Shown here: piece by piece, positions 44,834-63,989 of the stretch
Position numbering within the stretch: position 1 is the stretch's first letter
Layout: each line of letters starts with the position of its first letter
From: Acidihalobacter yilgarnensis
Lineage (GTDB): Bacteria > Pseudomonadota > Gammaproteobacteria > DSM-5130 > Acidihalobacteraceae
DNA length: 64,000 nt
Direction of reading: 5' to 3'
Assembly (NCBI RefSeq): GCF_001753245.1
Contig: NZ_CP017415.1
Span: 2,784,040 to 2,848,039, forward strand
Notes under the pieces: generated by a model
Told to the model about the DNA's origin: nothing
The model's database searches: none
The model's input: only the letters and a program-made list of their open reading frames with translations
Translations under genes and position numbers: made by a program

Positions 44834-45531
44834 CTACTTGAGCTTGCACGTCAAGGCCACGCGCTCGGCCAGTGCGCGGTCTAGTACGTAGAGGGTCCCC
44901 TCCGGCAGCCAGGGGTCGGTCCGCCACTCGGCAGCGCCACCGTTGGCGAGCTTGAGCCTCGCGCCAAAGTGATTGACTGGCTTGTGGTCGCGGATCGCGC
45001 GCTCGCGGTCAACGATCAAGCACACGGTCGGCGACTGGACTCGCCCTGCGGAGAGGCGACGCCGACCGCCGAGGAGACCACGCTCGACAGCGTGTAGCCA
45101 ACGAGACGATCGAGGGCACGCCGGCCTTCTTGCGCGCGCACCAAGTGCATGTCGATCTGCGCAGCCGCGTGATGGCGGCGCGGACAGCACTCCTCGTGAC
45201 TTCGTGGTAGGTGACGCGCGGGCACCGAGACTCGGAGAGCTTGAGAGTTTCCTTGAGGTGCCACGCAATGGCCTTGCCCTCGCAACCCGGATCGGTCGCC
45301 AAGATGACGTTGTCCGCGCACTGGATGATTTTGCGCAGCCGAGAGAGCACGTCCTTGCCGCGCTCGGTGACCTCATCCTCAAAAGCGAAGACGAGTGGTG
45401 CAACGCCCATGCTGTTGCACGGCAGATCGCGCACGTGCTCGACACTCGCGGTGACGAGGTCGTGGTGGCCGTGGCTTGCGCTTTGCCGGGGACTCGACGA
45501 TGACGACGGTCTTGCTTGCTCATGCAGGCTT
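44834..45531 (-). pseudogene. Type IA topoisomerase, multiply frameshifted and truncated
   Basis: Pieces in different frames give TVVIVESPAK, HDLVTASVEHVRDLPCNSMG, ATDPGCEGKAIAWHLKETLK, RRALDRLVGYTLSS and LSAGRVQSPTVCLIVDRERA, the ordered landmarks of the topoisomerase IA Toprim and core domains. The Toprim DREGE motif is GCEGK, so catalysis would be lost even without the frameshifts, and the active-site tyrosine region is missing. It may be a relic of the mobile element's own DNA-processing set. Confidence 0.7.
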
Positions 45532-50053: not shown

Positions 50054-50079
50054 GAGGACTAGGTGTCGTCAGAATTTAA
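50054..50079 (-). promoter_or_regulatory. Shared element E2, before the DNA polymerase
   Basis: AAATTCTGACG followed by ACACCTAGTCCTC, four bases from the polymerase ATG. It overlaps the last codons of the primase-like gene. Confidence 0.65.
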
Positions 50080-51058
50080 GCGCGAACGAGGTGCAGGGAG
50101 TACGCGTTCGTAAGGCGGTGGGGTCGCGATCCATCAGGTAGATGACTTCTTGTACGTCGGGCGGTATGACCTGACTCTTGAGTCCGCCGCCGACCTGGAT
50201 GGCGCGCACCCTGGGTGGCCCAGCCTCCGGGCGAGCTCGGGCAAACAGCTCGGCGCCCGCGAGCGCGGTCTCGACGCCCTCGGCCACGATCAAGGTGGCC
50301 GCATGCTCGGCGCCCAACTCGATGTAGGCGCCAGCGATCCCAATCTGTTTGTCGAGTGGCGCGGTGCCCTTCTTGCCAGGCGCATCCTCTGGCGCGCGTC
50401 CGTAGTGCTCAGACAGCGGAATGTAGTGGTAAGTGATGGGCCGTCCGTCCGGAGCACGCACCAACGCCAACACTTGCGGCGGTTTGGTCTTGAATCGCCC
50501 CTTAGCCGGCATCGTCGCGATCCCGCGCAAGGCCGCCGGGAGTCTGCCGACGGCAAGGCCACGTGAGATGAGATATCGCGTGGGCGCTTCGTTGTGATCA
50601 GCCTGTAGCCAGCGTCCAACCTGTACGGCAGAGGCGGGACACGCCAGCGGCGGCAGGTCGGCCTCAAGGGCGTACTCGTCTGCCCAGGCCACTGATTGTG
50701 CCAGCGCCGCCTCAGCGGCTAATCCGTGGCCGTCCGGCAGGTCCTGCAGGATGCCCGCGACGAGATCGATGCCGTTGGCGGCGCGCACGTGCGCGCAGGA
50801 ATTGCAGATGCCGCCGCCGGTGAAGTCGGCGTCCGGGAAGAACCGGAAGGCCTCGCCGGAGGCTCCGCCGTGGGCGGGGCATGCCTGCGGCTCGCCTGGG
50901 AAAAAGCTCACTTCGAGACGCTTCGTCTCGTTCAGCCAGGTAAAAAAGCCGGACCAGTGGCCCAGCAAACGGACCTTGGCGATTTCGGCGGGCGACGGCG
51001 CACGGAGGGGCTTCTTCGTGGGGCGGGCCGGAGGCTGTGGGTAGGCTTGATCGGTCAT
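50069..51058 (-). CDS. Primase-like Toprim protein, truncated after DxD
   Basis: A 329-residue protein with an N-terminal zinc-finger-like set (CPAHGG and GGICNSCAH), a middle domain (EAPTRYLISRGLAVGRLPAA) and a Toprim fold (TLIVAEGVETALAGAELFAR; VIYLMDRDPT). These match primases of phage and plasmid replication modules. The chain ends 17 residues after DRD, where Toprim domains normally continue with another helix and strand, so the C-terminus, including any helicase, is lost or was never present. The polymerase gene follows at once and both likely act together. Confidence 0.8.
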   Translation of the reverse strand: MTDQAYPQPPARPTKKPLRAPSPAEIAKVRLLGHWSGFFTWLNETKRLEVSFFPGEPQACPAHGGASGEAFRFFPDADFTGGGICNSCAHVRAANGIDLVAGILQDLPDGHGLAAEAALAQSVAWADEYALEADLPPLACPASAVQVGRWLQADHNEAPTRYLISRGLAVGRLPAALRGIATMPAKGRFKTKPPQVLALVRAPDGRPITYHYIPLSEHYGRAPEDAPGKKGTAPLDKQIGIAGAYIELGAEHAATLIVAEGVETALAGAELFARARPEAGPPRVRAIQVGGGLKSQVIPPDVQEVIYLMDRDPTALRTRTPCTSFALKF

Positions 51059-51066
51059 GCGATGTT

Positions 51067-51115
51067 CCTCGATTAGGGTGTCTATACCAGCAATAGGCTG
51101 GGTCGAAAATTAGAA
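51067..51115 (-). promoter_or_regulatory. Shared element E1, split form, before the primase gene
   Basis: TTCTAATTTTCGAC and GACACCCTAATCG are present but separated by about 20 bases that hold a small hairpin (CAGC...GCTG). It is the most divergent copy. Confidence 0.45.
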
Positions 51116-51270
51116 CGAAAAATAAATCGAAAAAAAAATCCGCAACTGCAATCTCGGCAGTGCGGTGGGGCAGAACGACACCCGATCAAGCGAACTAGGT
51201 GCGCGCGAAAATTGAGGCGGCGCCGGAGTCACAAGCAAAACGGAGCCCGCAGGCTCCGTCGTGGAATGAA

Positions 51271-51546
51271 TTACTTCAGTAGGCCCTGCTCACGCATGAT
51301 GAGGGCGATCTCGGCGTGGGCGGCGATCGTTTGGTCGTCGATATCGCCAGATTCGCTCGCCAGCGCAGCATTGGCTACGCGTGCGTGCTCGTCGGGGCCT
51401 AGCATCGCGAAAAACTCCTCAGCCCAGAAGGCAACCGTTTTGTCACTGACGTCAGCAATGCGTAAGACGTTCTGCTTGAGTACGGCAAGGACGTCCTCCT
51501 CGGTGATCCCAAAGGCTGAGCTTGTCGATAGCGCTAGTGCATTCAT
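51271..51546 (-). CDS. Small protein sharing a domain with the neighbouring 51653 gene
   Basis: A 91-residue acidic protein. Its ITEEDVLAVLKQN...AEEFFAMLGPDEHARVANAA...IALIMREQGLL pattern recurs at the C-terminus of the next protein upstream (LTKADVDAVLHQY...AETFFESLGPVEHARLETAA...LAIFMRERDLL), so the two are paralogous in this domain. Function unknown. AGGAA stands before the ATG at 51546 and shared element E3 lies 45 bases ahead. Confidence 0.65.
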   Translation of the reverse strand: MNALALSTSSAFGITEEDVLAVLKQNVLRIADVSDKTVAFWAEEFFAMLGPDEHARVANAALASESGDIDDQTIAAHAEIALIMREQGLLK

Positions 51547-51589
51547 CTGCGGCATTCCTATGGTTGACCGGCAAAAGGCCGGGCTCGTG

Positions 51590-51615
51590 AAGGACTAGGG
51601 GGAGCGAGGAATTGG
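51590..51615 (-). promoter_or_regulatory. Shared element E3
   Basis: CCAATTCCTCGCTCCCCCTA followed by GTCCTT; the CCTAGTCC core is kept while ACA is replaced by CCC. A hairpin CCGGC-CTTTT-GCCGG follows before the gene. Confidence 0.55.
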
Positions 51616-51652
51616 GGAGGCGAGCGGGTCTGGCCTGGGATCTACCCGCGGC

Positions 51653-52759
51653 TCACACCAGCAGGTCCCGCTCACGCATGAAGATGGCGAGCTGAGCCTG
51701 GAGGGCGAATCGCGCAGCCGTCTCCAGGCGTGCGTGCTCAACAGGTCCTAGCGACTCGAAGAAGGTCTCAGCCCTCGCCGCCAGCGTGCGAAGGTTGGGC
51801 GTGACCAGGCGCGAAGCGTACTGATGCAGGACGGCGTCGACGTCAGCCTTCGTGAGCTTGATGGTCACAGGCGCCAGGCCCCTGGCGGCTGGCAGCGCTT
51901 TCGGGCGCTGGCGCTTGAGTATTCTCGTGGGGGTTAGGGACTCAGGACGGGCGGATGAGCCGCCGAGGGATGCGGCCAGAAGGGCTTGGCGCTTCGCGTC
52001 AGCCATCGGCGCCTTCGGAAGTTCGGGCTTCGCGCCGTTCTTTGGCCCGCCACCCAGGAATGGCCGTCTGGCCGGGCTCGTGTCCGCCGGGTTCTCGGTG
52101 CGCGATAGCAGGAGCCCGAGGGAGTCGACGAATCGGCTAGCCTTGGGCTTAACGGCATCCGGCGGCGCGTACAGAGGCGGAATGGGTGCCAAGAGCGCTG
52201 CGCTCAGCCCTTCGCTGCGTAGCGTCTCGTCTGAAAGACCGCTCACTGCCTGGCGAAGAATCGAGAGTAATTCCGTGGCTTGCGCAGGTGGTGGCAAGGC
52301 GGTTTCGCTCTGCTCCGCGGGCTTCGCTGCGGGGCGCTGTTCCAGTAGCGCGGCGGTCAGAGCCTCCGAGGATAGTGCTGACAACGCTTTTGCGGCCTTC
52401 ACCGACGCTTGAAGGGCGGGGATCTCGCTTGATTCCGAGGAACCCTCACTCGACGATGAGTCTCCGAAGTCGACGGGCTGTCCGTTCAGTCGATCGACCG
52501 CAAGCGCCTCAGCGATACGGATTCCGCCTCGCGTCACAATCTGGCTCCCGCGCCAGCCATCGAAGGTGATCGTGCGCAACTCACCGCTCGGAAGCTTGAC
52601 CCGCAGCCGATCGCCGGTCTTCAAGAGCCCCTTCGCGTTGAGCGTGGCTTGCTTGATCTGCGCCCGGGCCAGCGCCCGCTCGAGCTTTTGCTGCATCTTG
52701 CGCGCCGCTTGCTGAGCCTCTCGTATCCCTTGCATCCATCGTCTCCAAGCTGGGTCCAT
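51653..52759 (-). CDS. Unknown element protein, disordered middle, conserved C-terminal domain
   Basis: About 368 residues from the ATG at 52759. The N-terminus is helical and basic (QAARKMQQKLERALARAQIK), followed by a beta-rich stretch (DRLRVKLPSGELRTITFDGW), a long Ser/Ala/Pro-rich middle and a C-terminal domain shared with the 51271-51546 protein. The longer frame to 52855 is rejected because it would run through shared element E4. No known family. Context suggests replication or partition near the origin-like repeats that adjoin its 5-prime end. Confidence 0.6.
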   Translation of the reverse strand: MDPAWRRWMQGIREAQQAARKMQQKLERALARAQIKQATLNAKGLLKTGDRLRVKLPSGELRTITFDGWRGSQIVTRGGIRIAEALAVDRLNGQPVDFGDSSSSEGSSESSEIPALQASVKAAKALSALSSEALTAALLEQRPAAKPAEQSETALPPPAQATELLSILRQAVSGLSDETLRSEGLSAALLAPIPPLYAPPDAVKPKASRFVDSLGLLLSRTENPADTSPARRPFLGGGPKNGAKPELPKAPMADAKRQALLAASLGGSSARPESLTPTRILKRQRPKALPAARGLAPVTIKLTKADVDAVLHQYASRLVTPNLRTLAARAETFFESLGPVEHARLETAARFALQAQLAIFMRERDLLV

Positions 52760-52790
52760 TGGCCGGGCGCCGATCTTGCGCCTGATGGTG

Positions 52791-52816
52791 GGGACTAGGT
52801 GTCGGCCAAAATTAGA
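52791..52816 (-). promoter_or_regulatory. Shared element E4
   Basis: CTCTAATTTTGGCCG followed by ACACCTAGTCCCC, a near-consensus copy, 32 bases before the ATG at 52759. Confidence 0.65.
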
Positions 52817-52859
52817 GGGCGCGGGGCCGGATGCGCTCGCCGTGACGCCTGCCATACCG

Positions 52860-53470
52860 CCACGTAGGCCATTCCCCCAGCCGATATCAATGACTTAGCG
52901 AGGCAAGACGGGGCGGCCCTAGCCACTGAACCACCTCCTAAAAGCCTTAATCGCACCCCGGGCTAGCGGAAGCCGGAGGCCACTCCCCCAGCCGATATCA
53001 ATGACTTAGCTTTTTCCGGTGACGCCGTTTTTTCGCGGTTGCGATTAAGCGCGACAATAGAAAATGACTTAATCGCGGGTCTTAATCGCACTTTCTGGAC
53101 CCCATTCCCCTAGCCGATATCAATGACTTAGGTGCTTTACCAAGAGGCACTGCGATTATAAAACGCTAAATACCTATACCTTACGCATATACGTACGTGC
53201 GCCTGTGTGCATGTATGCGTGTATGTGTGCGCATGCATGTGTGTGTATGCGTGTAAGGCAGACGATTCTTTAGTCGCATTGTCGCAAGCCACCCTCGTGG
53301 CCCCCCGTAAGTCATTGATATCGGCTGGGGGAATGGGGTGTGGCGCGCTGCGACTAAAGGGCGCGACGAAGGCATTTTCTATTGTCGCGCTTAGTCGCAC
53401 CCCGCGCTCCTGGCTTCGGTCAGCGCCCTCGCGGCATCGCTAAGTCATTGATATTCGCTGGGGAACGGGG
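52860..53470. repeat. Origin-like repeat region with five 28-bp repeats
   Basis: Repeats with the core GCCGATATCAATGACTTAG lie at 52871-52898, 52982-53009 and 53104-53131 (direct) and at 53307-53334 and 53440-53467 (inverted; the last less perfect). Between them, 9-mers GCGAYTAAG or CTTARTCGC occur about eight times (e.g. 53041, 53069, 53081, 53390), and a 20-base stretch CGCGACAATAGAAAATG is repeated inverted at 53370-53389. No gene is supported. Such arrays serve as iterons of a replication origin or as a partition or transfer site; the adjacent polymerase and primase favour an origin. Confidence 0.7.
53182..53254. other. Long alternating purine-pyrimidine tract
   Basis: Two runs, ACGCATATACGTACGTGCGC and a following stretch of about 50 bases, alternate purine and pyrimidine almost without a break. 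Such DNA readily forms Z-DNA or unwinds. It lies at the centre of the origin-like repeats, between the direct and the inverted copies. Confidence 0.75.
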
Positions 53471-53676
53471 GTTTAGGCCCACCCGTCGCCAGCGCCAAGC
53501 GGTCCTTCTCAGTCATCGCCACCGCCGAGCCCATGGAAAACACCCCCCCTAGGGGGGGTGGTGAATCCGAAACCGAGCGAGAGCCGCCTTTAGCGACCCT
53601 CCGGCCGAGAAGCTCGCCTCTCGCGCCACACCCTCCCTTCCAGGGAAGGGAGATCCAGAATCCTCGCCGCCACCGC

Positions 53677-53703
53677 TCCAATTTTCGCCGACACCTAGTC
53701 CTC
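53677..53703 (+). promoter_or_regulatory. Shared element E5
   Basis: CTCCAATTTTCGCCG followed by ACACCTAGTCCTC, 57 bases before the ATG at 53760. It is close to the consensus and on the plus strand. Confidence 0.65.
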
Positions 53704-53759
53704 GCAAGCACCCGGCATTGCGCCGCGGCACCAATCAGCGAATCAGCGAGGAGAGCGGC

Positions 53760-54248
53760 ATGGCGACACCCAGCGACACAGATCAGCAAACCCGCGAGGA
53801 TAGCGCGTCGCGCCTCCCGCCGACGGCGGAGAAGGACCCTCTCGGCATAGATCAGCATGCGCCTGGCGCCAAGCTCGACGCCGGCAAGTCGCGCCCCGAG
53901 CTCGCGCTCAGCGGCTTTGTCTTGGCCCTTCGCAGCGTAGCGTCTCGCGTCGCCACCGGACGCCCAGACGAATTGCTGGCCTGCATCGAGGCCGAGCGCG
54001 CCGCCGTCACGGCCGGGAGCGCCTCTCGCCAGACCGCTGCCCTCGCGAACACCGCAGCGCTGATCTTGCACACGCTCACGGGTACTCGCTGCAACCCGCT
54101 ACGCTCACTCGGCCCCTTGGGCCTGCCCTACACCCTGCGGCGCTCGGGGAAGTCGCCAAGGTCGCCACCTATGGCGCGGAGAAGCACACTCCCAATGGCT
54201 GTGTGCGGGTGCCTGCTGGCGTTCAGCGCTACACCGACGCGATGTAAT
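53760..54248 (+). pseudogene. dATP/dGTP diphosphohydrolase-like (DUF5664) protein, broken
   Basis: From the ATG at 53760 (GAGGAGA ahead) one frame gives GAKLDAGKSRPELALSGFVL, the family N-terminus. Further on another frame gives ALGEVAKVATYGAEKHTPNG and VPAGVQRYTDAM before a stop, the next conserved block. The two are separated by about 200 unrelated bases and the C-terminus is missing. Phages and mobile elements use such enzymes to adjust nucleotide pools. The uninterrupted but meaningless frame extends to 54293. Confidence 0.55.
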
Positions 54249-54396
54249 GCACAATTAAAAGGTTTTTTATGGAATCTCGCGCGCGATTTATGATATTTGT
54301 CCCGCACGCTCCCCTGCTGTCCGCTGCGTACACTCGGCCACGCACATTCAATCGCTCAAAACTCGGCGACAACAGACCGAGGGTGAAAATTCAGTC

Positions 54397-54630
54397 TTAA
54401 GAAAAACCGATGGATACGATGCATCGTGGACACAATCGCTTCACAAGCGAAAGCATCAGCGCACGCCCAATCTCTTCCAACCGAAGCATGTGCAGAAAAA
54501 GCGGGGAGGCGTCGAGCCGCCCCCTCGCATGAATAGGCTCTAGGTCCTTGAAAGCCGTCTCGGTGATCCCGTTCAGCCCGATGCTGAAAATCTCGACTTC
54601 GCTTCGCCGAAACTCGGCCGCATCAGCCAA
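54397..54630 (-). CDS. Doubtful small protein
   Basis: A 77-codon frame (MADAAEFRRSEVEIFSIGLN; LFLHMLRLEEIGRALMLSLV) in the same direction as the gene before it. It has ordinary composition but no ribosome-binding site and no known family. The surrounding 54294-54661 has nothing else. Confidence 0.3.
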   Translation of the reverse strand: MADAAEFRRSEVEIFSIGLNGITETAFKDLEPIHARGRLDASPLFLHMLRLEEIGRALMLSLVKRLCPRCIVSIGFS

Positions 54631-54661
54631 GCCGGCATCGACAGGTGCTGCAGCGAGATGA

Positions 54662-54859
54662 TCAGGCAGCCTTGAGCAAATACAGGGCGTAGCCCTCCAA
54701 GATCAAAAACGCCAAACCGGACCACACGATCGTGGGCCAATCTGAATGCGTCATACCCTGGTAGACGAAGTAACAGCCTCCGAGCAGGGCGATCACGCTG
54801 ACGGTGTTCGCTAGATGCTGGCTTTGTTCCTTGTTCAATCGCACGCTCATCTCCTCCAT
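54662..54859 (-). CDS. Small two-helix membrane protein
   Basis: About 65 residues with two hydrophobic helices (TVSVIALLGGCYFVYQGM and TIVWSGLAFLILEGYALYLL) after a charged N-terminus (SVRLNKEQSQHLANT). No family recognised. The shared element E6 and a small hairpin (CCGC...GCGG) lie just upstream, so it belongs to the element's common regulon. The start may be the ATG at 54859 or 54850. Confidence 0.55.
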   Translation of the reverse strand: MEEMSVRLNKEQSQHLANTVSVIALLGGCYFVYQGMTHSDWPTIVWSGLAFLILEGYALYLLKAA

Positions 54860-54885
54860 CCACCGCGAAAATGCGGGGCTCACCG

Positions 54886-54913
54886 AGGACTAGGTGTCAG
54901 GCTAAATTAGAGC
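54886..54913 (-). promoter_or_regulatory. Shared element E6
   Basis: CTCTAATTTAGCCTG followed by ACACCTAGTCCTC, directed at the small membrane-protein gene. Confidence 0.65.
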
Positions 54914-55901
54914 GCCCTCCTTTTCGTTCGCCAGAGGCCCTCTTGGCGAATAAAAACCGTGGATCGTCATCGCAGGCAGGCTCAATCGGAGAATTCGCGC
55001 TACTGCGTCACAAGCGTCGCCGGACTGGCCGGAGGCCGTACGCAGGCCAACACCAGGGCGCACTCACACGGACCGCGCGGGCGTAGCGGCCAGGAGTACC
55101 GATGTCATGCCAGGCTTGCCGGTGGCCTCTGTGCAGGGCAACTTCGCCCGCCAGCATGGGCGGAGGGCGGCTTGGCTATGGATGATGTACAGCGCCGCTG
55201 TACAGACTGCATCCGCGGGTCGGTGAGTCTCTTCGTCACCCGGCGATGATGCTGCCACGCCGCGGCCTCACCCACAGGCACAGGCCGCAAGGAAGAGGCT
55301 CCCACTCGGCCAGCAGAACAGGTCGCGCAAGCGAGCCCTGGTGGCGTTCAAGCGTAGTAGGCGTATTGAAGCGGGATCCGGCTCAAACGCCGAAATACGC
55401 CCCACTATTACCGGCATAAACAGCAAGTTACAAACCATCACTGCAGTAAGGCGTTTAAGCGTTCAATGGATTAAGTCTTTATTTCTTAGATGTTGTGTAA
55501 TCCTCAATCGCCTCCGGACCAGCTGTCTGCGCGCGTGGTAGGCCTGGCGAAAGGTTGCCTGGGATCAACGCTCAAACGCACAGCGCTCTGATCGTCCATA
55601 AGCCATTGGTTAGCATTGTTTTTTTGTCTGCGTTTGATGCTTCGTGCTGGTGCTACGCGAATCAAAAGCGTCAACGCGCCGCCTCGTCTGTCCTGGTCCG
55701 GCTCGAATGGCGCGAGCGCTTGCGAAATCATCACGTGGGCCGTCCATCCGGCGCCGGGGCTAAACGCGAGCACGTCAGCTGACCTGTCGGTATCGCATTG
55801 CGCCGCCAGCCCCTGGTCGCCACAATGGAAAAGTTGACCACCGGGTATGCAATTTCAGACTACCCGACAATCGCACCCTTCATTAAGCGCAGGTTGCTTC
55901 C
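54914..55901. other. Gene-poor kilobase with a perfect 19-bp palindrome
   Basis: No frame shows a known family. The best candidate is a minus frame from 55731 to 55504 (MISQALAPFEPDQDRRGGAL), without a clear ribosome-binding site. A perfect palindrome TGTACAGCGCCGCTGTACA at 55186-55204 looks like a dimeric regulator site. The stretch could be decayed or hold cis-acting sites. Confidence 0.4.
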
Positions 55902-55928
55902 TCTAATTTTCAGTTCCCCCTAGTACGC
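55902..55928 (+). promoter_or_regulatory. Shared element E7
   Basis: CTCTAATTTTCAGTT followed by CCCCCTAGTACGC; divergent in the second half but with the CCTAGT core at the same spacing. Confidence 0.55.
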
Positions 55929-55989
55929 ATGAGGTCAATCCTCAAGCGCCTACAGCATGAGCGCGTATCCATGCTGAACGAAGAGGAAT

Positions 55990-56244
55990 ATGAAGATGGA
56001 GTTACACGAAGTGCGAAGCCTGTTGTCCGACCCTGTCATTTTGCGTGCCCACTACCCCCTAGTCTCGTTCAGACGCAAAGCGGAGCCGATTCAGATTTCG
56101 CCGACCTGGCCCGTCGAAAGCCTAAATCTCGTGGTCATGGGAGAGGTGCTCGAGGCGTACGTAAAAGATAGTGGAGAACTGATTATCCGTACGATACACG
56201 GCTATCTGCGCTTCCATTGGCCCAGAAAAAGCGCTTGTCATTAA
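55990..56244 (+). CDS. Small unknown protein of the element
   Basis: An 84-residue protein (MKMELHEVRSLLSDPVILRA; LNLVVMGEVLEAYVKDSGEL; IIRTIHGYLRFHWPRK), compact and mixed alpha/beta. No family recognised. AGAGGA lies shortly before the ATG at 55990, element E7 is upstream and a good terminator follows, so it forms its own transcription unit. Confidence 0.55.
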   Translation: MKMELHEVRSLLSDPVILRAHYPLVSFRRKAEPIQISPTWPVESLNLVVMGEVLEAYVKDSGELIIRTIHGYLRFHWPRKSACH

Positions 56245-56254
56245 CACCTTCGCG

Positions 56255-56283
56255 GCCTGGGACTTAACCCCCAGGCTGTTTTT
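56255..56283 (+). terminator. Rho-independent terminator
   Basis: GCCTGGG (56255-56261) pairs with CCCAGGC (56270-56276), followed by TGTTTTT. It ends the unit of the 55990 gene. Confidence 0.8.
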
Positions 56284-56361
56284 ATTGAACAAACTTATTC
56301 GAGGGATGAACCTCGGATTGCGGGCCGAATTGGCCACTTATTTCAAAGTCGACGGCCAAGC

Positions 56362-56952
56362 CTAGCGCGCTTTCGATTTGGCCCTTGTGGGGGGCTTCTT
56401 GACGGGCGGGTCACTCTTGCGTTTCGCCTGTGCCAAATCGGACCCCGCGACGGATTTTTGCGCCTTGGCGGTCTTTGAACGCTTTAGCGCCTTCCCAGCG
56501 AGACTTGCGTCTTTCTTGCTTGTGGTCATTGAGGCGCCCTCATTACGAGATCGGCTGTTCGGCGAGGGCGTCAACTCCTTCGCCGCTGCGAACGCCAGGA
56601 ATGCGGAGCGGCTCAAGTGCCGCGCCTTCGCGGTTGCATCGATGCTGTGCAGTAGCGTCTCGGGCAGACTGATGTTCAGTCGCACGGACCTTGCCGGACG
56701 AAGGTGGCTTGGATCGATCTCTACCAGCATCCAATAGCCATCCCGATATCGGTCGTCTTGACCCATATCCTCCGGATCGGAGGGTGGCGGAATCAGAATG
56801 TCCTCACCCTCGAAATACAACTCGACTGCCTCCTGCGCCAGACGCGGCAGGTCATTCAGCTCGTCGGCCGCAGTAAAACAGCCAGGAAAGTCAGGGAACG
56901 ATGCGCTGTATGCGCTTTCGGCATCTTTGTGAACGTACAACGGAAACAGCAT
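56362..56952 (-). CDS. HicB-like protein with basic C-terminal tail
   Basis: A 196-residue protein. The N-terminal 75 residues match HicB-type antitoxin folds (MLFPLYVHKDAESAYSASFP, then DFPGCFTAADELNDLPRLAQ), followed by a ribbon-helix-helix segment (SVRLNISLPETLLHSIDATA) and a long Lys/Ala-rich tail (about residues 145-196) unlike usual antitoxins. No HicA toxin gene is adjacent, so it may be an orphan regulator. GGAGG eight bases ahead fixes the start at 56952. Confidence 0.75.
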   Translation of the reverse strand: MLFPLYVHKDAESAYSASFPDFPGCFTAADELNDLPRLAQEAVELYFEGEDILIPPPSDPEDMGQDDRYRDGYWMLVEIDPSHLRPARSVRLNISLPETLLHSIDATAKARHLSRSAFLAFAAAKELTPSPNSRSRNEGASMTTSKKDASLAGKALKRSKTAKAQKSVAGSDLAQAKRKSDPPVKKPPTRAKSKAR

Positions 56953-56982
56953 TACTTGAACCTCCAGGGCCATCCCGCCCTG

Positions 56983-57010
56983 CTCTAATTCTCGTTAACA
57001 CCTAGTCCTA
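56983..57010 (+). promoter_or_regulatory. Shared element E8, before the TraG-like gene
   Basis: CTCTAATTCTCGTTA followed by ACACCTAGTCCTA, three bases from the ATG at 57013. No ribosome-binding sequence fits between, so the leader must be very short or the element itself takes part in translation. Confidence 0.65.
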
Positions 57011-57012
57011 TT

Positions 57013-60000
57013 ATGAAACCACATCGCAGCCAATCCTCGATCCTCACGCGTTTGACCTATCTATGCGCCCTGCTCGCCCTGGTGTCGCCGCTCTCGGCCT
57101 TCGCCGGAACCGCGAACCCGGCCGGCGCCACGGCCTGGACCGTCTACGCCTTTGCCAACGGCAACACGATCTACAACATCCTGCAGGCGGCCACTGGCCT
57201 GGTGAGTTCCAGCGCTTACTGGGCACTCCTCGGCTTCCTGGTGACTGTCGGTATCATTGGACTCTCCATCGCGGCGGCGCACCGCTCCGCGAGCGCTGGC
57301 AAGATTGTGGGCACCTTCATCGCCATCGTGGCGCTGACCAACATCGGGCTCAAGACCACGGCCACCGTCTATATCACCGACACCGTGACGGGCTACAGCA
57401 ATACGCTGAGCAACGTGCCGCTGCTGATCGCGTTGCCGGAGGCCATCGCCTCGACCGCGGGCTACTCGATCACCAAGACACTGGAGCAGTTCTTCACCAT
57501 CCCGGGCGACTTGACGGTCTCTGGCGGCGGCTTCAACCTCGCCAATTCTCTCGTCCAGGCCTCCACCGAGGTGCAGGTGACCGACCCGAACGTGCGCGCA
57601 ACGCTTGCGGCCTTTACGCAGAACTGCATCGTGCCCTCGATCGTCTCCGGCCGGATCTCGCCTTACGCGATGATCAAATCATCGGATCTGTGGGGCACGT
57701 CGGGTCCGCTGTCTCTGGTCGACGGCTCCCCCTTGACCCCGGTCTACACCGATACGCAGCCCGCCGGCGCGATGGTCCCTTGCGGACCCAGCGGTGTGGG
57801 CGGCAACACCCCGACCGCAACCAACACCACGCCTGCGGTCAGCGGGCAGGACGCCTTTGATTACCTGCGCAGCTTCTTCGCTGCCGCCGCTCCGGGCTGG
57901 CTGGCCGACTCCGCCTCGACCTACGGCAACACCAGCGCCTACTCGTGGCTCTCTGGATCCATGGCGAGTGCACAGAGCTTCTTGTTTGGCGGCGCACTGA
58001 CCAGCGGCTCCGGCCAATCGATCGAGCAGGCGGCCGCGATCAACGCCTTGCGGCCGGCCCTGAACGCGGCCGAGATCGCGTCCGGCAACTCCGCCGCCGT
58101 GACCGCCATGGCGATTAGCCAGGCCAAGCAGTCGCAGGTCTCCTCCTGGGGCACCGCCGCCGTTATCTTCCGTGACATGTCCGGCTATCTCTATTCCGTG
58201 CTGCAGGCCTTCCTGATCGCGATGACACCGCTGATCATCGCCGCTGCCTTCATCCCTGGCGCCGGCAAGCGCCTGCTGATCAGTTACACGCAGGTCATCA
58301 TCTGGCTGGCGCTGTGGGAGCCGACCCTGGCGCTGGTCAACTTCATCATTGACTCCTACAGCCAGGGGCAGATGGGCGGCGTACTGGGCAGCTCCGGCGG
58401 CTACTCCATGGCCAACATGGGCGCCGTCACGCAAATGACCAGCCACCTGGTCCTCGCCGGCGGGTTCCTCGCCAGCATGGTGCCGCTGATCACCTGGGGC
58501 CTGGTCAAGGGCGGCATCGCCTTCACCGAGTTCCTTGCGGGCGGCATGGGCGCAGCCCTGGCCTCTCAGGCGGGATCCGCAGCCGCCACCGGCAATCTCT
58601 CGCTGGGCAACAAGAGCTTCAACAACACCTCCATCGACCAGGAAATGGAGCTGTACAAGCTCTCAGCGGGTAGTGGCGGCGCGATGGTGGGTCTGCCCGG
58701 CCCGGGCTCGAGCGAGACCTATACTGCCTCGGGCATTCAGGCGAACGTGGATGGCTCTGCGATTTCGCAACAGCTCGCGGCCAGCCGGAGCGCGATTGAG
58801 GCTCAGACCGCCGCGGTCACGCAGAGCTCAGTCGTAACCGCAAAGAGCGCGGCGAGCGCCGCCGAGTCAGCGCAAACCAGCGCCAGTGAGTCGGCAGCCA
58901 ACGCGCTTGGCGAAGCGGGTCAGGGCGGACACACGATTACTGCCGGTGAGGCGGCAAGTTATCAGACGCAAGCCAACCACGCCGTGTCCACGCTGGCCTC
59001 GAATCTGATCAAGGCGGGGGCGTCCGCAGATCAGGTCAAGAAAAACATAGCGGAGGCAGGCGTTAGCATGACCGGTGCCGGCGTCGCGAAGATGTTGCAG
59101 GGGTTGGTTGAGAAGGGTCAGATCACCGAAGATGCGGCGGACGCCGGCGCGATAGACCTGGCGAAACGGGGAGGGAAAGAGGGGGTCAAGGCTGCCGAAG
59201 CCGGCGGCGCCGAGGCGATGAGCTTTATCGAAAAGAGCGGGAAATTCGTCAAGGTCAGCGGTAAGGTCGTCGGCGGCGTCCTGGGGGCGGCGCTGAGCGC
59301 CATGGACACAAAGACCGGAGGTACACTGCAATCGTCGACGGATGCCAAAGCCAGCACGAGCACGGACCATACGCAGAGTAATAAGGTAGAAAACGGCGAG
59401 ACTGAGGCTGAGTCCCTTGGGCACAACGCCAAGGTCGAGGCCGCGATGTCGCAGTTCAATTCGTCAATGGCATCGGCCACGAAGGGGTTGGGTCACAACA
59501 TCTCCGAGACCTACCAGAAGGCAGCGGACCTCTCGAAACTCGCCTCACGTGGCTATAGCGTGGCGCACAGCGCGCAGCTGACCAGTAATGCAACGGCAAG
59601 CCTCACGGTGCCGGTGGGCTTTGACAGCAGTGGCGCGGCACTCCGAACCGTAGATGGCGCGCTGACCATGCAAGAGAACAAGACGAAGCATCTCTCATCG
59701 ATGCTGGGGTCTCTCCAGGAGCAAGTGCAGCATACGATCGCGGGGGATGGCAGCAAGATCGCTGCGCCCACCGCCCCAGGCCTGACGCAAGCCCAGATGC
59801 AGAGCGCGCAGCAGGAAAGCCAGCATGCGCGCACGGTGCTCGCGAGCCCGAAGTATCAGCAAGCGCTCAGCAAGGCAGAAGCAGAGTTCTCCGGCAAGCC
59901 TGGCTCCACGGAGTTCGATCAGGAGCGCGCGGCCTTCAAGAGTCAGTATCTGGCCAAGACCAAGACCGCGACGGATGCCGCTGGCACGATATCGGCGACA

Positions 60001-60891
60001 GCGCAGACTAAACTCAATGCCGAAAAGGGCAAGGTGACCACCGAGACGGCGAGCCAGAATAAAGCCATTGCCAAGCAGGAGGCACAGACGGGCGCCGCGC
60101 TCAATTCGGCGAACCCCTTCTCCCCGATGACGGTCGGGGAGCAATACGGCAGCACCGCCGCAAAGGAGGCTCATAACCTGATCGCCACGATCGGCGAAGG
60201 GGGCGTGGCCTCCCTCGCTACCGTGGCTTCGAACTGGGCGGGAGGCGACCTTAAAGACCTTGCAAAAATCAAGGTGCCCGGCGCTGAGGGCATGACCATT
60301 GGCGCGATTGCGGCAAAGATGGGGACCAGTGTCAATGGCTTGCTCAAAACTACGGCGCAAACGGTGGCTAACGCTTCGCGCAATCTCGCCGAGGACACTC
60401 GGTCCGGTGTGGCGGAGTTGCTGGATGCGGGCGGCGGCGCTGACCTGCTAGCGGATGGCGGGATGGCCGCCCTGGGGCTCGCCACGGCAGCGCTCGCGGA
60501 GGTGGGTGGAGCAGGCTATGTCGGCTATCAGGCGGGCACAGTGCTTGACCGGTGGACAGGGGCTTCCAGCAAGGTCGCGGACTGGGCGGAGGATCTTGCC
60601 GGGTCAGGCGCTGCGGATCCTCAAGCCACCGCGCCTACATCACGGGCAGCACCCTCGACCGGGATGGTGAATCGAGGGGTAGCCGCTGATCAGGCAGCCT
60701 ACGGAGAGCCAGGCGGAACTGACCACGCGCCACTATCGATGCCCACGCTAACCGGTAGCCCTTCCGTGCCCGCGCCGCCGACTCCCTCGATTGGGCCAGC
60801 CCCCAATCCTGAAACGGGCGGGCCGACACCTGGGGAACTTGGCGCCGAAGGCACAGACGGTCCAGACATCCCGCGAGACTCCAGCTCGTAG
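57013..60891 (+). CDS. TraG-N-like mating-pair stabilisation protein
   Basis: A 1292-residue membrane protein with a signal peptide (LTYLCALLALVSPLSAFA), helices at about 68-90 (YWALLGFLVTVGIIGLSIAA), 97-113, 397-417 (LQAFLIAMTPLIIAAAFIPG), 425-445 and 480-515, typical of the TraG N-terminal domain of F-like conjugation systems. From about residue 540 a long Ala/Ser/Gln-rich helical tail extends to a Pro-rich end. TraG acts in mating-pair stabilisation and entry exclusion. No other type IV secretion genes are in the window. Element E8 lies directly before the start. Confidence 0.8.
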   Translation: MKPHRSQSSILTRLTYLCALLALVSPLSAFAGTANPAGATAWTVYAFANGNTIYNILQAATGLVSSSAYWALLGFLVTVGIIGLSIAAAHRSASAGKIVGTFIAIVALTNIGLKTTATVYITDTVTGYSNTLSNVPLLIALPEAIASTAGYSITKTLEQFFTIPGDLTVSGGGFNLANSLVQASTEVQVTDPNVRATLAAFTQNCIVPSIVSGRISPYAMIKSSDLWGTSGPLSLVDGSPLTPVYTDTQPAGAMVPCGPSGVGGNTPTATNTTPAVSGQDAFDYLRSFFAAAAPGWLADSASTYGNTSAYSWLSGSMASAQSFLFGGALTSGSGQSIEQAAAINALRPALNAAEIASGNSAAVTAMAISQAKQSQVSSWGTAAVIFRDMSGYLYSVLQAFLIAMTPLIIAAAFIPGAGKRLLISYTQVIIWLALWEPTLALVNFIIDSYSQGQMGGVLGSSGGYSMANMGAVTQMTSHLVLAGGFLASMVPLITWGLVKGGIAFTEFLAGGMGAALASQAGSAAATGNLSLGNKSFNNTSIDQEMELYKLSAGSGGAMVGLPGPGSSETYTASGIQANVDGSAISQQLAASRSAIEAQTAAVTQSSVVTAKSAASAAESAQTSASESAANALGEAGQGGHTITAGEAASYQTQANHAVSTLASNLIKAGASADQVKKNIAEAGVSMTGAGVAKMLQGLVEKGQITEDAADAGAIDLAKRGGKEGVKAAEAGGAEAMSFIEKSGKFVKVSGKVVGGVLGAALSAMDTKTGGTLQSSTDAKASTSTDHTQSNKVENGETEAESLGHNAKVEAAMSQFNSSMASATKGLGHNISETYQKAADLSKLASRGYSVAHSAQLTSNATASLTVPVGFDSSGAALRTVDGALTMQENKTKHLSSMLGSLQEQVQHTIAGDGSKIAAPTAPGLTQAQMQSAQQESQHARTVLASPKYQQALSKAEAEFSGKPGSTEFDQERAAFKSQYLAKTKTATDAAGTISATAQTKLNAEKGKVTTETASQNKAIAKQEAQTGAALNSANPFSPMTVGEQYGSTAAKEAHNLIATIGEGGVASLATVASNWAGGDLKDLAKIKVPGAEGMTIGAIAAKMGTSVNGLLKTTAQTVANASRNLAEDTRSGVAELLDAGGGADLLADGGMAALGLATAALAEVGGAGYVGYQAGTVLDRWTGASSKVADWAEDLAGSGAADPQATAPTSRAAPSTGMVNRGVAADQAAYGEPGGTDHAPLSMPTLTGSPSVPAPPTPSIGPAPNPETGGPTPGELGAEGTDGPDIPRDSSS

Positions 60892-60924
60892 GGGGTGCGC
60901 CATAAGCAAAAATCTTGCCCACCA

Positions 60925-61070
60925 CCCTCAACGGCGGTAGGCTCAACTTAGGGAGGCCGTGCGTCGCGCGGTAGAGATGAGGTACGAGAGCACCAACGTA
61001 GAGACTTGCATAGCGAGATGCATAGCCATGGCAACACACAAGAACAGCATACCAACCGAACCTGACGTCA
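60925..61070. repeat. Long direct repeat, copy 1
   Basis: Shares with 62262-62410 the CCCTCAACGGCGG block and, 45-51 bases later, an almost identical stretch of about 60 bases beginning GGTAGAGATGAGGTACGAGA and ending GCATAGC, then a looser match to GAACCTGA. It covers the possible start codons of the 60977 gene. Confidence 0.7.
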
Positions 61071-62140
61071 CGGTTCGTCCGATCTGGCCCACCCCCGCCG
61101 TCAAGGCAAAGGCCGCGCCCCTGCGCCTCAAGGCGATGGAAGCCCGCGATCGACTCAACGCCGAATTGTACCGCCGCGCGCCAGGCAGATCTCCGCACGC
61201 ACACGGTTTTCGTGTACGCCAGGAGCGTCGTCTACGCGATCTGCTGGTGGCGAAGCTGGGCGTCGAGCGAGCCGCGAACCGCGAGGACTACAAGCCCGAG
61301 GGCTGGTCGTACTCGCCCTTCCTCCCGCTCGATGTCGGTCCCGAGTTCTCTACGCGCACGCTGGTGGCAATGGCGCGCCCAGCCCTGATTGCGCACGCCG
61401 AGCAGATCAGCGATCCACACGATCCGCTGGGCGGCACGATGGTTGAGGATCTCGATTTTCTGGTGGTCTACGGCGAAGACCCCTCCCCGCCACTCGACCG
61501 CCTGCCGGAGGCGCTGTCGCGCCTGCGACGCGTGATGTGCGGGCTGCGCAGGGCGCCAGGCGGCGCCAATGCCAAGTCGCTCGATGCCGTGATGCGTGGC
61601 AGCAAAACCTGGATCGCGACCGAGACACTGCGGCCGCCGACCCGAAAGCGGGCGATTAGGCGTCCGTTTCTAGTCCTGGCGTGGCTGTTTTTCGTGGCGC
61701 CCGAGGCGGGCATTGCCACCATGCTCGTGCGCCGCATGCTGGAGGGCACCCTGCCGGTCAATGCACACGACGTCCTCGGAGCTTTGGCGTGGGGGCTGGG
61801 CGCTTCCGCTATTCCGCTGTGGACGCTACTGGCGTCGAGGCAAGCGCGGAAGCGCCGTGCGGCGCTCATCAAGGAGGCGCGAGACCAGCACTTTCAGGTT
61901 CACGCGCAGGACGAGCCCATGCGCGCGGATTACGTGCGCATGGCGCCCGTGGTTCAGGCGATCAGGCCTTGGCGCGATCTGGCTCGGGCGGAATACCGCA
62001 GCTATCACGCAAGGCTGCAGCGGTACCAAGGGCATCAGGCGAAAGCCCGGGCCGAAGAAAGTCGGCTAGAGGCTGAAAAGGATGCGGCGCGGCATTACAG
62101 TCCTGCCGACCTGCTTTGCACGATTAATACCGGCGACTAA
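60977..62140 (+). CDS. Unknown two-helix membrane protein after the TraG-like gene
   Basis: About 387 residues, with a charged N-terminal domain (RLKAMEARDRLNAELYRRAP; GWSYSPFLPLDVGPEFSTRT) and two central membrane helices (PFLVLAWLFFVAPEAGIATM and VLGALAWGLGASAIPLWTLL), then a basic helical tail. No family recognised; position suggests conjugation. Starts at 60977 or 61028 are both possible. The DNA around these starts is repeated at 62262-62410. Confidence 0.6.
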   Translation: MRYESTNVETCIARCIAMATHKNSIPTEPDVTVRPIWPTPAVKAKAAPLRLKAMEARDRLNAELYRRAPGRSPHAHGFRVRQERRLRDLLVAKLGVERAANREDYKPEGWSYSPFLPLDVGPEFSTRTLVAMARPALIAHAEQISDPHDPLGGTMVEDLDFLVVYGEDPSPPLDRLPEALSRLRRVMCGLRRAPGGANAKSLDAVMRGSKTWIATETLRPPTRKRAIRRPFLVLAWLFFVAPEAGIATMLVRRMLEGTLPVNAHDVLGALAWGLGASAIPLWTLLASRQARKRRAALIKEARDQHFQVHAQDEPMRADYVRMAPVVQAIRPWRDLARAEYRSYHARLQRYQGHQAKARAEESRLEAEKDAARHYSPADLLCTINTGD

Positions 62141-62141
62141 G

Positions 62142-62231
62142 CCGCCTCATCCGCCTCATCCGCCTCATCCGCCTCATCCGCCTCATCCGCCTCATCCGCC
62201 TCATCCGCCTCATCCGCCTCATCCGCCTCAT
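62142..62231. repeat. Ten perfect tandem copies of a 9-bp unit
   Basis: CCGCCTCAT repeated ten times without error directly after the stop codon at 62138-62140, followed by two CCGCCCCAC variants. Slippage-prone; no coding role is supported. Confidence 0.9.
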
Positions 62232-62261
62232 CCGCCCCACCCGCCCCACCCGCGCCTACCG

Positions 62262-62410
62262 CCCTCAACGGCGGCAGGCGCAAATCAGCGCGAACAAAGC
62301 CGTGCTTTGCAAGGTAGAGATGAGGTACGAGAGCACCAACGTAAAGACTTGCATAGCGAGAGGCATAGCTATGGGCAACACACAAGGACAACAACCAAGC
62401 CGCACCTGAC
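62262..62410. repeat. Long direct repeat, copy 2
   Basis: Partner of 60925-61070. Here the matching start codon leads only to a dozen codons before a stop, so this copy is a duplicated leader without its gene, or both are copies of a non-coding element. Confidence 0.65.
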
Positions 62411-62456
62411 ACCACGGCTCGACCCATAATGGAATTTGGCGTGAGGATGGGCCTCC

Positions 62457-62705
62457 ATGAGAAATTGGCTCTGCGCAGCTTTAGTGCCCGCGCTGCTGGT
62501 TGTTGGCGCTGCTTTCAGCGCCCTCCGCGGCACTCGCTGAATGCGCTGACATCGCGCGCCTGGAAAAGCAGGCCGGGAGCAGGGGCCCTGTAGCTGAAAC
62601 GCTCTAGCCAAAGCTTAGGACTTTGCCAGTGCCGTGCGCGTAGATCGCGCAAAGGCTGACTATTGGTACCTCAAGGCGGCCGAGCAGATTAGCAGTACGA
62701 GATTG
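62457..62705 (+). pseudogene. Secreted Sel1-repeat protein remnant
   Basis: MRNWLCAALVPALLVVGAAF begins a signal peptide, then the frame shifts by one near 62520 to SAALAECADIARLEKQAGSR. Later ADYWYLKAAEQ appears, a Sel1-repeat core, again in another frame. The gene is broken several times. Confidence 0.45.
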
Positions 62706-62764
62706 CGGAAAAAACCGGTGCTCAGGACCCTTCGCCGTACTTGCGGAACAGCTGTGCGCAGCGC

Positions 62765-62790
62765 TTGAAATTTCCGCGACACCTAGTCGA
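62765..62790 (+). promoter_or_regulatory. Shared element E9, before the integrase unit
   Basis: TGAAATTTCCGCG followed by ACACCTAGTCGAT, 30 bases before the DUF4224 start. Confidence 0.6.
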
Positions 62791-62820: not shown

Positions 62821-63015
62821 ATGTTTCTGACGCCCGACGAACTGCTCGAACTCACAGATTTTAAAACGAGCCGCAAACAGCTCGAGTGGCTGCGCGCGAA
62901 CGGCTACCCCTTCGCGATCGGCGGCCACGGGCGCCCGAAAGTTTTGCGCGACGTTATGCTCGCCCGGTGCGGCTCGCAAGCGGCTACCCAACGCCCGAGA
63001 GTAAGGCTACCATGA
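62821..63015 (+). CDS. DUF4224 protein
   Basis: A 64-residue protein (MFLTPDELLELTDFKTSRKQ, then LEWLRANGYPFAIGGHGRPK), the full DUF4224 domain, which commonly precedes tyrosine recombinases of phages and islands and may act as excision or integrase cofactor. Its stop overlaps the integrase start by four bases (ATGA). Confidence 0.85.
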   Translation: MFLTPDELLELTDFKTSRKQLEWLRANGYPFAIGGHGRPKVLRDVMLARCGSQAATQRPRVRLP

Positions 63016-63989
63016 GCCTCATGCGCCCCCGTAAAACAGACCGCCACCTTCCCGCATGCATGTATCTCAAGCATGGCGCGTACTGGCTCGTTAAACGCGG
63101 CAAGTGGACGGCTCTTGGAAAGGCTTATGGATCCGCGCTAACTGAGTACGCCCGACTCACGAAGCCCTCCACGGGCGGCATGCCGAACCTGATTGAGCGC
63201 GCCCTCCCGTTCATTCTCAAGGACAAGAGCGCGAGCACGCGCAAGCAATACGAACAGGCTGCTCGGGTGCTGGCCGACGCGTTACAGGAGTTCAACGCCG
63301 ATCAAGTCACGCAGGCCGACATTGCAGACATCAAGAGAGCATACGCAGACCGACCGAACATGGGAAATCGCATCCTGTCGGTGCTGCGCCTGATCTTTCA
63401 TCACGCCGTCGAGTGGGGCGAGATTCCCAACAATCCTGCAATCGGCATGAGGCGATACGTCGAGGCGAAGCGCGATCGGTATCTGTCGGACCAAGAATAT
63501 GCAGCCATCTGGGCTGCGGGAAGCGATTCACTGCGCGCCATCATGGATGTGGCCTACCTGACCGGTCAACGGATTATGGACGTGCTCAGGCTTCGCTTGT
63601 CGGATATCACCGATGGGGGCATCGAAATCAGGCAGGGTAAGCCCGGGCAACGCATGCTTGTCGAGATGACGCCGGGGCTGCGCGATGCGATCGAAGCAGC
63701 GAAGACGCTCATCCGGCCGGCGCGGGCCATGACGCTATTCTGCACGATGCGCGGGGCACGGCCCTACGCCTACCGGACGGTGCGGGATATGTATGCGTCG
63801 GCCTCCGAGAAGGCTGGCGTGGCGAACACGACACTCCATGATTTGAGGGCCAAGGCGCTGACCGACATCGATCGCGAAGGTGGCGATGCACAGGCTCTGG
63901 GCGGACATTCTTCGGCTGCAATGACGAAGCGCTACCTTCGGGTTTTGAAGACGGTCAAAGCCACACCGCCGACGGCAATCAAGCGCTAA
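63012..63989 (+). CDS. int: Tyrosine recombinase (phage-type integrase)
   Basis: A 325-residue integrase. N-terminal arm- and core-binding region (TRKQYEQAARVLADALQEFN), then catalytic residues: Arg in LTGQRIMDVLRL, Lys in RQGKPGQ, His and Arg in TTLHDLRAKAL, His in GGHSSAAM and the nucleophile Tyr in TKRYLR. It would insert and excise the element. The start at 63012 is coupled to DUF4224; the longer frame from 62886 lies inside that gene. Integrases usually sit next to one end of their element, so an attachment site is expected just beyond the window. Confidence 0.93.
   Translation: MSLMRPRKTDRHLPACMYLKHGAYWLVKRGKWTALGKAYGSALTEYARLTKPSTGGMPNLIERALPFILKDKSASTRKQYEQAARVLADALQEFNADQVTQADIADIKRAYADRPNMGNRILSVLRLIFHHAVEWGEIPNNPAIGMRRYVEAKRDRYLSDQEYAAIWAAGSDSLRAIMDVAYLTGQRIMDVLRLRLSDITDGGIEIRQGKPGQRMLVEMTPGLRDAIEAAKTLIRPARAMTLFCTMRGARPYAYRTVRDMYASASEKAGVANTTLHDLRAKALTDIDREGGDAQALGGHSSAAMTKRYLRVLKTVKATPPTAIKR

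Follow-up and report, generated by a model that had tools for sequence, protein, structure and literature searches.

A short oriented motif ahead of the replication, transfer and integration genes of an Acidihalobacter mobile island: a candidate core promoter

What might switch on the replication, transfer and integration genes of a mobile element together is the question raised by an island of Acidihalobacter yilgarnensis, in which one motif lies upstream of nearly all such genes. The island spans 71.9 kb and is inserted inside mutS: copies of a 21-bp repeat within this gene lie 71,877 bp apart, mutS is uninterrupted in genomes G001 and G002, and the locus has the features of an integrative element, i.e., an integrase, att repeats at both ends and an empty site in relatives. 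In the window (the whole stretch of DNA analysed, 64,000 nucleotides, whose numbering is used below), it encodes a family-A DNA polymerase (47327..50050, minus strand), a Zn-ribbon primase (PF08273; 50069..51058, minus), a protein with a TraG N-terminal domain that has relatives on conjugative plasmids (57013..60891, plus), a DUF4224 protein matching excisionase families (62821..63015, plus) and a tyrosine integrase (63012..63989, plus; searched as 63015-63989, from codon 2). Five CCCCAGCCGATATCAATGACTTAG-like repeats, three one way and two opposite (52863..53472), form a candidate replication origin. Among the genes searched, few of them in the left 45 kb, traG is the only transfer gene. Given that the island backbone is partly broken, with topB present in pieces, the regulon may be dead.

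The original prediction listed nine copies of the motif, eight of them gapless and aimed at the next gene, and these eight are borne out. They align as CTCTAATTTT-N6-CACCTAGT (ca. 24 letters, delimited as 27-mers for coordinates and matrix scoring), and each is oriented into the following gene. On the minus strand they precede the polymerase gene (50055..50081), a 91-94 aa gene (51591..51617), a 368 aa gene (52791..52817) and a 73 aa gene (54886..54912), and on the plus strand an 84 aa gene (55901..55927; likely start 55990), traG (56983..57009) and the excisionase-integrase pair (62764..62790). The eighth (53676..53702, plus) is divergent from the 52791 copy, the two standing at opposite edges of a repeat-rich intergenic region. 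Leave-one-out matrix scores were 20.9-37.7, against a maximum of 16.7 on both strands of 10 random sequences matched in dinucleotide composition and in length (104 kb). Seven of the eight are fully intergenic in a region that is 78% coding by the gene list made in this analysis, and the polymerase copy overlaps the primase end by 13 bases. The ninth, a split copy at 51067, is doubtful, as the left half reaches just 11.4 and the right half base-pairs elsewhere in its own leader; it is superseded by a weaker copy ahead of the primase gene (51191..51217, minus; 17.1 bits held out, 22.6 bits with the 12-site matrix), just downstream of a terminator-like site (51260-51239). The motif is palindromic only at AATT and CTAG. 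In the eight-site alignment no upstream column from -73 to -20 exceeds 0.55 bits, so the motif block is the sole shared element there; single columns at -74, +21, +22, +38 and +59 did pass this cut and are regarded as chance.

The motif is rare in the host genome (3.57 Mb). A stricter pattern found five places, all within the island (control 0), and a relaxed one (up to three mismatches), which does not catch the copies at 62764 and 51191, found eight, seven of them in the island, compared with three for the reversed-pattern control; an equal density of matches elsewhere in the genome, which would speak against the original prediction, was thus not seen. The one exception, at 1,729,266, lies ahead of a gene with plasmid relatives, and a second species carries a near-identical version of this locus. 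This copy was a chance find and the sole use made of a loose pattern, which gave 154 + 156 matches against 266 + 256 in its control, the window's own copies, though matching, not being among the matches listed. Rfam searches of the 1.729-Mb locus as it occurs in G001, and of 46.8-64 kb of the window, returned nothing. Ten plasmids bear relatives of the 1.729-Mb gene, and the seven of them scanned had no copy (maximum 8.0). The strict pattern matched once across 368 other genomes (control 4). In other genomes the relaxed pattern matched once each in G001, G159 and G362 (reversed control 8), the G362 match scoring 10.7 bits.

By itself the single G159 match is at the chance level of this search (three genomes versus eight in the control), and it stands out owing to two further copies on the same contig. 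This contig (13.4 kb, 70% GC) comes from a bacterium of another family and carries a gene for a family-A DNA polymerase homologous to that of the island (44% identity). With a matrix derived only from island sites, the three motif copies of the contig reach 27.0-32.5, against at most 14.4 in 7 Mb of random sequence, and the next best place on the contig has 4.5; 234 kb of further G159 DNA reach at most 8.0 with the 12-site matrix. The bases following CTAGT differ from those of the island. No copy stands directly ahead of the G159 polymerase and primase genes, the nearest being 410 bases before the primase. Compared with 44-64 kb of the window, the polymerase is the only convincing protein shared with this contig, whose 311 aa protein had no plasmid match, and no candidate for a factor reading the motif emerged from this comparison. 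A 38-residue match (E 1e-4) also links two unassigned reading frames of the two stretches. The earlier statement that no copies occur outside 50-63 kb is therefore correct for the window and 20 kb on each side of it, but not beyond, given the copies at 1,729,266, in the second species and in G159.

Further relatives of the island or its motif were scarce. No plasmid gave a close DNA match to 46.8-64 kb, 50.0-57.3 kb gave one distant plasmid match, at hicB, and none to phages, and for 38 bases surrounding one copy the plasmids yielded just three matches, at E 5. Five long plasmid stretches with relatives of the polymerase, primase or TraG had no copy above 8.2 bits. The polymerase search of genome contigs found one remote relative (23%) without a motif copy, and across 56 genomes nothing besides the own gene exceeded 36.6 bits, matches that we read as host polymerases. 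Primase relatives occurred in two of 368 other genomes, both weak, and three surrounding stretches had no copy (maximum 7.8). Four pattern scans of viral contigs hit 1, 11, 14 and 3 contigs with one exact match apiece. Of ten inspected, six lay inside open frames of at least 220 codons and four did not, one of the latter (17.9 bits) shortly ahead of an ATG; two more of these four belong to nine contigs sharing one identical copy (16.5-16.7 bits). Two contigs of the three-contig scan share one 29-bit stretch, which lies antisense to a phage gene and is followed by no gene on the motif strand, and the third scores 23.4 bits. We read these viral matches as chance, chiefly since no contig has a second copy; polymerase searches of viral contigs gave only remote matches and primase searches none.

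Does the motif accompany an ordinary host promoter? It had been said not to resemble a sigma-70 promoter, and the counts agree: 17.2 kb hold one sigma-70-type match, inside the integrase gene, against 3.5 +/- 1.8 in shuffles, and the best sigma-70 scores around ten sites are within the random range, save one (9.3 versus a random 95% point of 8.1). The -35 and -10 hexamers of a sigma-70 promoter, ca. 17 bases apart, were not found with the motif. From the end of the 27-mer, distances to the start codon amount to 2-4 bases in the polymerase gene, traG and the 73 aa gene (if its GTG start is correct) and to 30-62 bases for the remaining five genes, and offsets counted after the C of CTAG form two groups, 10-12 and at least 38, although in at least three cases (the 73, 84 and 91-94 aa genes) they hinge on which start codon is chosen. 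In the 84 aa unit, an ATG nine bases past CTAG begins a different frame. A structure predicted for the product of the 91 aa gene had low confidence (mean pLDDT 51) and was left aside. The polymerase start codon lies 12 bases past the C of CTAG, and for traG the ATG 11 bases past it is very probably the start, because an in-frame TAA within the motif shuts the frame and Shine-Dalgarno pairing is absent at this start.

With moderate confidence, and judging from sequence, we take the motif to be the core promoter of a regulon of mobile elements that carry a family-A DNA polymerase. The lack of sigma-70 boxes, the lack of upstream conservation and the traG and polymerase starts 11-12 bases past the C of CTAG speak for a core promoter and against an upstream activator site. 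An initiation factor, supplied by the element or by a related element in the same cell, would make joint contact with CTCTAATTTT and CACCTAGT, the two conserved blocks on either side of the six-base gap, and recruit RNA polymerase, and we infer that transcription would begin within CTAGT or a few bases past it. Genes with a start codon 10-12 bases past the C of CTAG would then give leaderless or nearly leaderless mRNAs, and the remaining genes leaders of ca. 30-130 bases, most of them containing a Shine-Dalgarno site. A single factor of this kind could switch replication, transfer and excision-integration jointly while ignoring host promoters. The original idea of a private promoter for a replication, transfer and integration regulon is supported in part, by the shared oriented motif before such units, its rarity and near absence in the remaining genome, its conservation in G159 and the lack of sigma-70 features, but "private to this element" was too narrow, as more than one element carries the motif. 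A far-reaching form of the core-promoter reading, unlikely in so specific a shape, is that a mobile-element group in unrelated Gammaproteobacteria has its own transcription system, in which a novel initiation factor or RNA polymerase, encoded by the element, would recognise CTCTAATTTT-N6-CACCTAGT, without any sigma-70 boxes, as the whole promoter and start leaderless polymerase and transfer mRNAs.

The most serious competitor, though a doubtful one, is an operator, i.e., an element-wide repressor or activator binding the motif and thereby controlling overlapping ordinary host promoters. KorA of IncP plasmids is a model for such a global operator-binding regulator. A regulon-wide operator predicts the same distribution and conservation, the HicB-like RHH protein and small genes encoded in the island region are possible regulators, and TAATTT of the first block keeps the A required by a -10 box in all 13 motif sites known altogether. 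However, -35 or -10 boxes have no common place, the near lack of palindromy does not favour an operator, and the fixed orientation relative to the gene is unnecessary for one.

We regard it as improbable that a single-subunit, T7-like RNA polymerase of phage type, supplied in trans or lost from the island, uses the motif as its promoter. T7-type promoters are similarly short and self-contained, with an AT block and then a CAC-TA block at the start, and the motif is broadly like the two T7 promoters compared; the island also has a family-A polymerase and a primase whose PF08273 Zn-ribbon is that of primase-helicases. Yet the middle bases of T7-type promoters are read for specificity, whereas here the middle six vary freely inside one element, and on the motif matrix no place in the stretch with both T7 promoters scores more than 15 bits. 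We rejected the possibility that the host genome itself encodes a T7-type RNA polymerase, as a PF00940 search had no match there but scored phage T7 at E 9.9e-110.

There is an equally small chance that the element works at the RNA level, the CTAGTCC half in the mRNA pairing with the gene's own ribosome-binding site. In seven leader genes the own pairing averages -7.9 kcal/mol versus -6.3 when swapped, 2.9% of 5040 permutations being as good, but this is a single post-hoc test; folding is strong in the primase leader (z -3.9) but does not pass z -1.5 in four of the seven. Such pairing leaves the AT-rich first block unexplained, the polymerase and traG copies have a complete CACCTAGTCCT half without a ribosome-binding site to pair, and the post-CTAGT bases differ in G159. 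That the motif has no regulatory role and arose by duplication or as a recombination site of gene cassettes is very unlikely and was rejected, largely on the G159 copies: the 52791 and 53676 copies, which sit in related leaders, do lie within a larger imperfect inverted repeat, but the flanks have no run of conserved columns in the eight-site alignment and the motif is kept between elements with polymerases only 44% identical.

Private regulons let mobile elements activate replication, transfer and excision together, unread by host promoters. The closest known parallels include SetCD of SXT/R391 and AcaCD of IncA/C plasmids, where an activator related to FlhCD binds a motif immediately upstream of the -35 box; the SetCD motif serves several transfer, excision and integration genes, once back to back for divergent promoters, and also occurs in a mobilised island (PMC4344509). 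The likeness is one element-specific motif ahead of several transfer, excision and integration genes, and the difference is that here the motif abuts start codons, ending 3-4 bases short of those of the polymerase gene and traG, and no -35/-10 boxes were found. A SetCD-like control, suggested by FlhDC-like genes on two related plasmids, was dismissed, as PF05280 (the FlhC family) has no match in this genome while the E. coli control was positive; this sets the island apart from SetCD/AcaCD systems and from SGI1-type islands. The transfer-competence regulon of ICEclc (BisDC) has a 27-bp motif that occurs in 8 of 9 co-expressed promoters and nowhere else on the element at a significant level, and one mapped start lies 152 bp away (PMC9286271). 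In the same way, our motif precedes several core units and is confined to the element bar one copy ahead of a plasmid-type gene, but the 152 bp there contrast with a few bases to the start codon here. In content, the island also resembles SGI1-type mobilisable islands, which have a traG of their own: it combines an integrase, an excisionase and replication genes with a TraG-type gene, the only transfer gene among those searched, although here the backbone is partly broken. Because the motif is kept in two elements with a shared polymerase, the factor can be searched for, since a complete element of this kind should encode it, and a truly new initiation factor would also provide an orthogonal promoter system. 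In the best-mapped case compared, SetCD, the activator site is described as lying upstream of a host promoter, unlike here, where the motif looks like the promoter itself, free of sigma-70 features and kept in two elements of different families.

The signal that precedes the replication, transfer, and integration genes of the mobile island in mutS consists of two blocks, CTCTAATTTT and CACCTAGT, with six variable bases between them. Upon direct inspection of 48.5-64 kb and a scan of the whole window with the consensus of the original prediction, eight of the nine copies listed there aligned free of gaps, the exception being the split copy at 51067, which proved weak. Over all 13 accepted sites (eight in the island plus a weaker one, one elsewhere in the same genome, and three in G159, a genome of another family), no variation occurs at three positions of block 1 (AA-T) or in the C-N-CCTA-N-T pattern of block 2. 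In a leave-one-out evaluation of the eight-copy matrix, held-out copies scored 20.9-37.7; the next-best scores in 104 kb (window plus flanks) were 17.1, i.e., an extra copy at 51191, and then 11.4, and ten random sequences with matched dinucleotide composition peaked at 16.7. All nine island copies, that at 51191 included, aim at the following gene, and eight of them do not overlap any gene, in a region of which 78% is coding (our own gene list).

The strict pattern (up to three mismatches) has five matches in the complete genome, all of them in the island (none for the reversed control). The relaxed pattern (eight matches; control, three) adds to seven island matches one at 1,729,266, at a threshold that misses the copies at 62764 and 51191. 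Within the island, the copies occupy the right-hand 14 kb, alongside the polymerase, primase, TraG, and integrase units. A scan of 368 further genomes of the class gave one match for the strict pattern (control, four) and, for the relaxed pattern, one in each of three genomes (control, eight), which is chance level judged by number alone; these three include a second species of the genus and G159.

The G159 contig (L144; 13,364 bases, 70% GC) carries copies at 1582, 7772, and 9054, to which the island-only eight-copy matrix gives 32.5, 28.6, and 27.0, with 4.5 for the fourth place on the contig and a maximum of 14.4 in 7 Mb of random sequence of its dinucleotide make-up. Elsewhere in G159, the best score over 234 kb was 8.0 (12-site matrix). 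The family-A DNA polymerase of this contig shares 44% identity with that of the island (47327..50050, minus strand) across 828 residues, a closer match than the best plasmid relative of the latter (35%), and it is the sole convincing shared protein when the reading frames of 44-64 kb are compared with the contig; the two primases gave no significant match. Conservation of the motif where nearly all else has changed, seen on this one contig, is the best argument for its being functional. For two of the three copies, a protein gene follows at 40-43 bases from the C of CTAG; behind the third, a 24-codon frame follows after 10 bases and the primase after 410. In front of an anaerobic ribonucleotide reductase gene, the same contig has a cobalamin riboswitch (9625-9864), an indication that host DNA starts at this point.

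The gene behind the copy at 1,729,266 starts 12 bases past the first C of its CTAC; ten plasmids, sized 4 to 70 kb, carry relatives. The gene lies in a segment of ca. 2,258 bases (1727822-1730077) that is 98.5% identical in the second species (G001, C1 93113-95367), and given that MutS is only 82% identical there, these identities indicate that the segment has probably moved recently. The shared 2.26 kb, for which an Rfam search in G001 was without match, comprises the plasmid-type gene behind the motif and ca. 1 kb that seems to be non-coding; it is perhaps a small mobile unit.

At the primase (50069..51058, minus strand), the right half of the split copy sits in an arm of a long leader fold (z -3.9; inverted repeat), and a better copy lies at 51191-51217, directly after a terminator-like site (51260-51239) that would end the preceding unit. 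The 140-base leader (51058-51198, minus strand) contains a stem and, after it, nine consecutive T, so attenuation may additionally control the primase; a second fold (z -3.9) covers the ribosome-binding site.

The motif is most simply read as a core promoter, since its orientation is fixed and since, in some units, it has to sit no more than a dozen bases from the start codon. The start codon of traG (57013..60891, plus strand) is 11 bases past the C of CTAG, a TAA inside the motif closes the frame, and no ribosome-binding site was found ahead of the start; a later TTG start is possible and would cut into a signal-peptide-like stretch (by eye). The polymerase start (at 12, and reached by the codon bias) and that of the 1.729-Mb gene are placed similarly. 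Starts of the remaining units are at 38 or more, with three exceptions: a GTG at 10 (alternative ATG at 43), an ATG at 9 in an 84 aa unit, which opens another frame, and the 24-codon frame in G159. The main rival explanation is an operator overlapping a host promoter. In the eight-site alignment, no column from -73 to -20 is conserved, sigma-70 promoters are scarce in the region (one vs 3.5 expected, and that one inside the integrase gene), and sigma-70 scores around ten copies are in the random range with one exception, in agreement with the predicted lack of sigma-70 resemblance. In seven leaders (start codons 51058, 51546, 52759, 53760, 54850, 55990, and 62821), the bases from CTAG on pair better with their own gene's ribosome-binding region than with those of the other genes; 2.9% of permutations of own vs swapped leaders were as good, a post-hoc and weak result.

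Concerning the factor that would recognize such a core promoter, neither an activator of the FlhC type, like those of SetCD and AcaCD, nor a T7-like RNA polymerase was found in the genome (E. coli and T7 controls positive). Unassigned candidates within the element are the HicB-like protein, the excisionase, a 91 aa protein (51271-51546, minus strand), and its paralogue (43% identity), the C-terminus of a 368 aa protein (51653-51919, minus strand); the latter two gave no convincing family match. The HicB-like antitoxin gene (56362-56973) is divergent from traG, and no hicA partner was noticed by eye. The factor gene may also have been lost, as topB is broken (pieces in two frames, 44834-45523) and transposase and metal-resistance genes were recognized by eye in the island's left part. 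The gene at 53760-54293 also seems to run on in another frame (by eye).

In two relatives of the genus, no interruption separates mutS (here at 64.06 kb) from the gene whose end lies at -8.0 kb in the present genome, and 21-bp att repeats (CCGATGATGCAGCAGTACCTG) stand at -7811 (attL) and 64066 (attR), which delimits an island of 71,877 bp. It is inserted among the initial codons of mutS and provides this gene with a new start (MSILEDKTATYTHTPMMQQYL...). A mismatch-repair switch upon excision is conceivable. Within the island, 52863-53472 is a candidate replication origin: a 24-bp repeat, in three copies of one orientation and two of the opposite one, surrounds a TG-rich stretch, imperfect inverted arms of 54 and 60 bp are also present, and divergent motif copies mark the two edges. 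Noted by eye were two similar stretches of ca. 120 bases (60920-61060 and 62260-62400), both containing a hairpin of the CCRCCCTCAACGGCGG type, and, near 62140-62240, a series of CCGCCTCAT units.

SpyCIM1 in mutL of streptococci is similar in kind to this island in mutS. The idea of an element-private regulon is already known: SetCD motifs adjoin -35 boxes, just upstream (PMC4344509), and in ICEclc, eight of nine co-regulated promoters share a 27-bp motif (PMC9286271). In searches of open-licence literature, nothing matching our motif was found. Its apparent novelty lies in the sequence itself, in the occurrence without host promoter boxes, in the short distance to the start codon, and in the conservation between two elements of different families.
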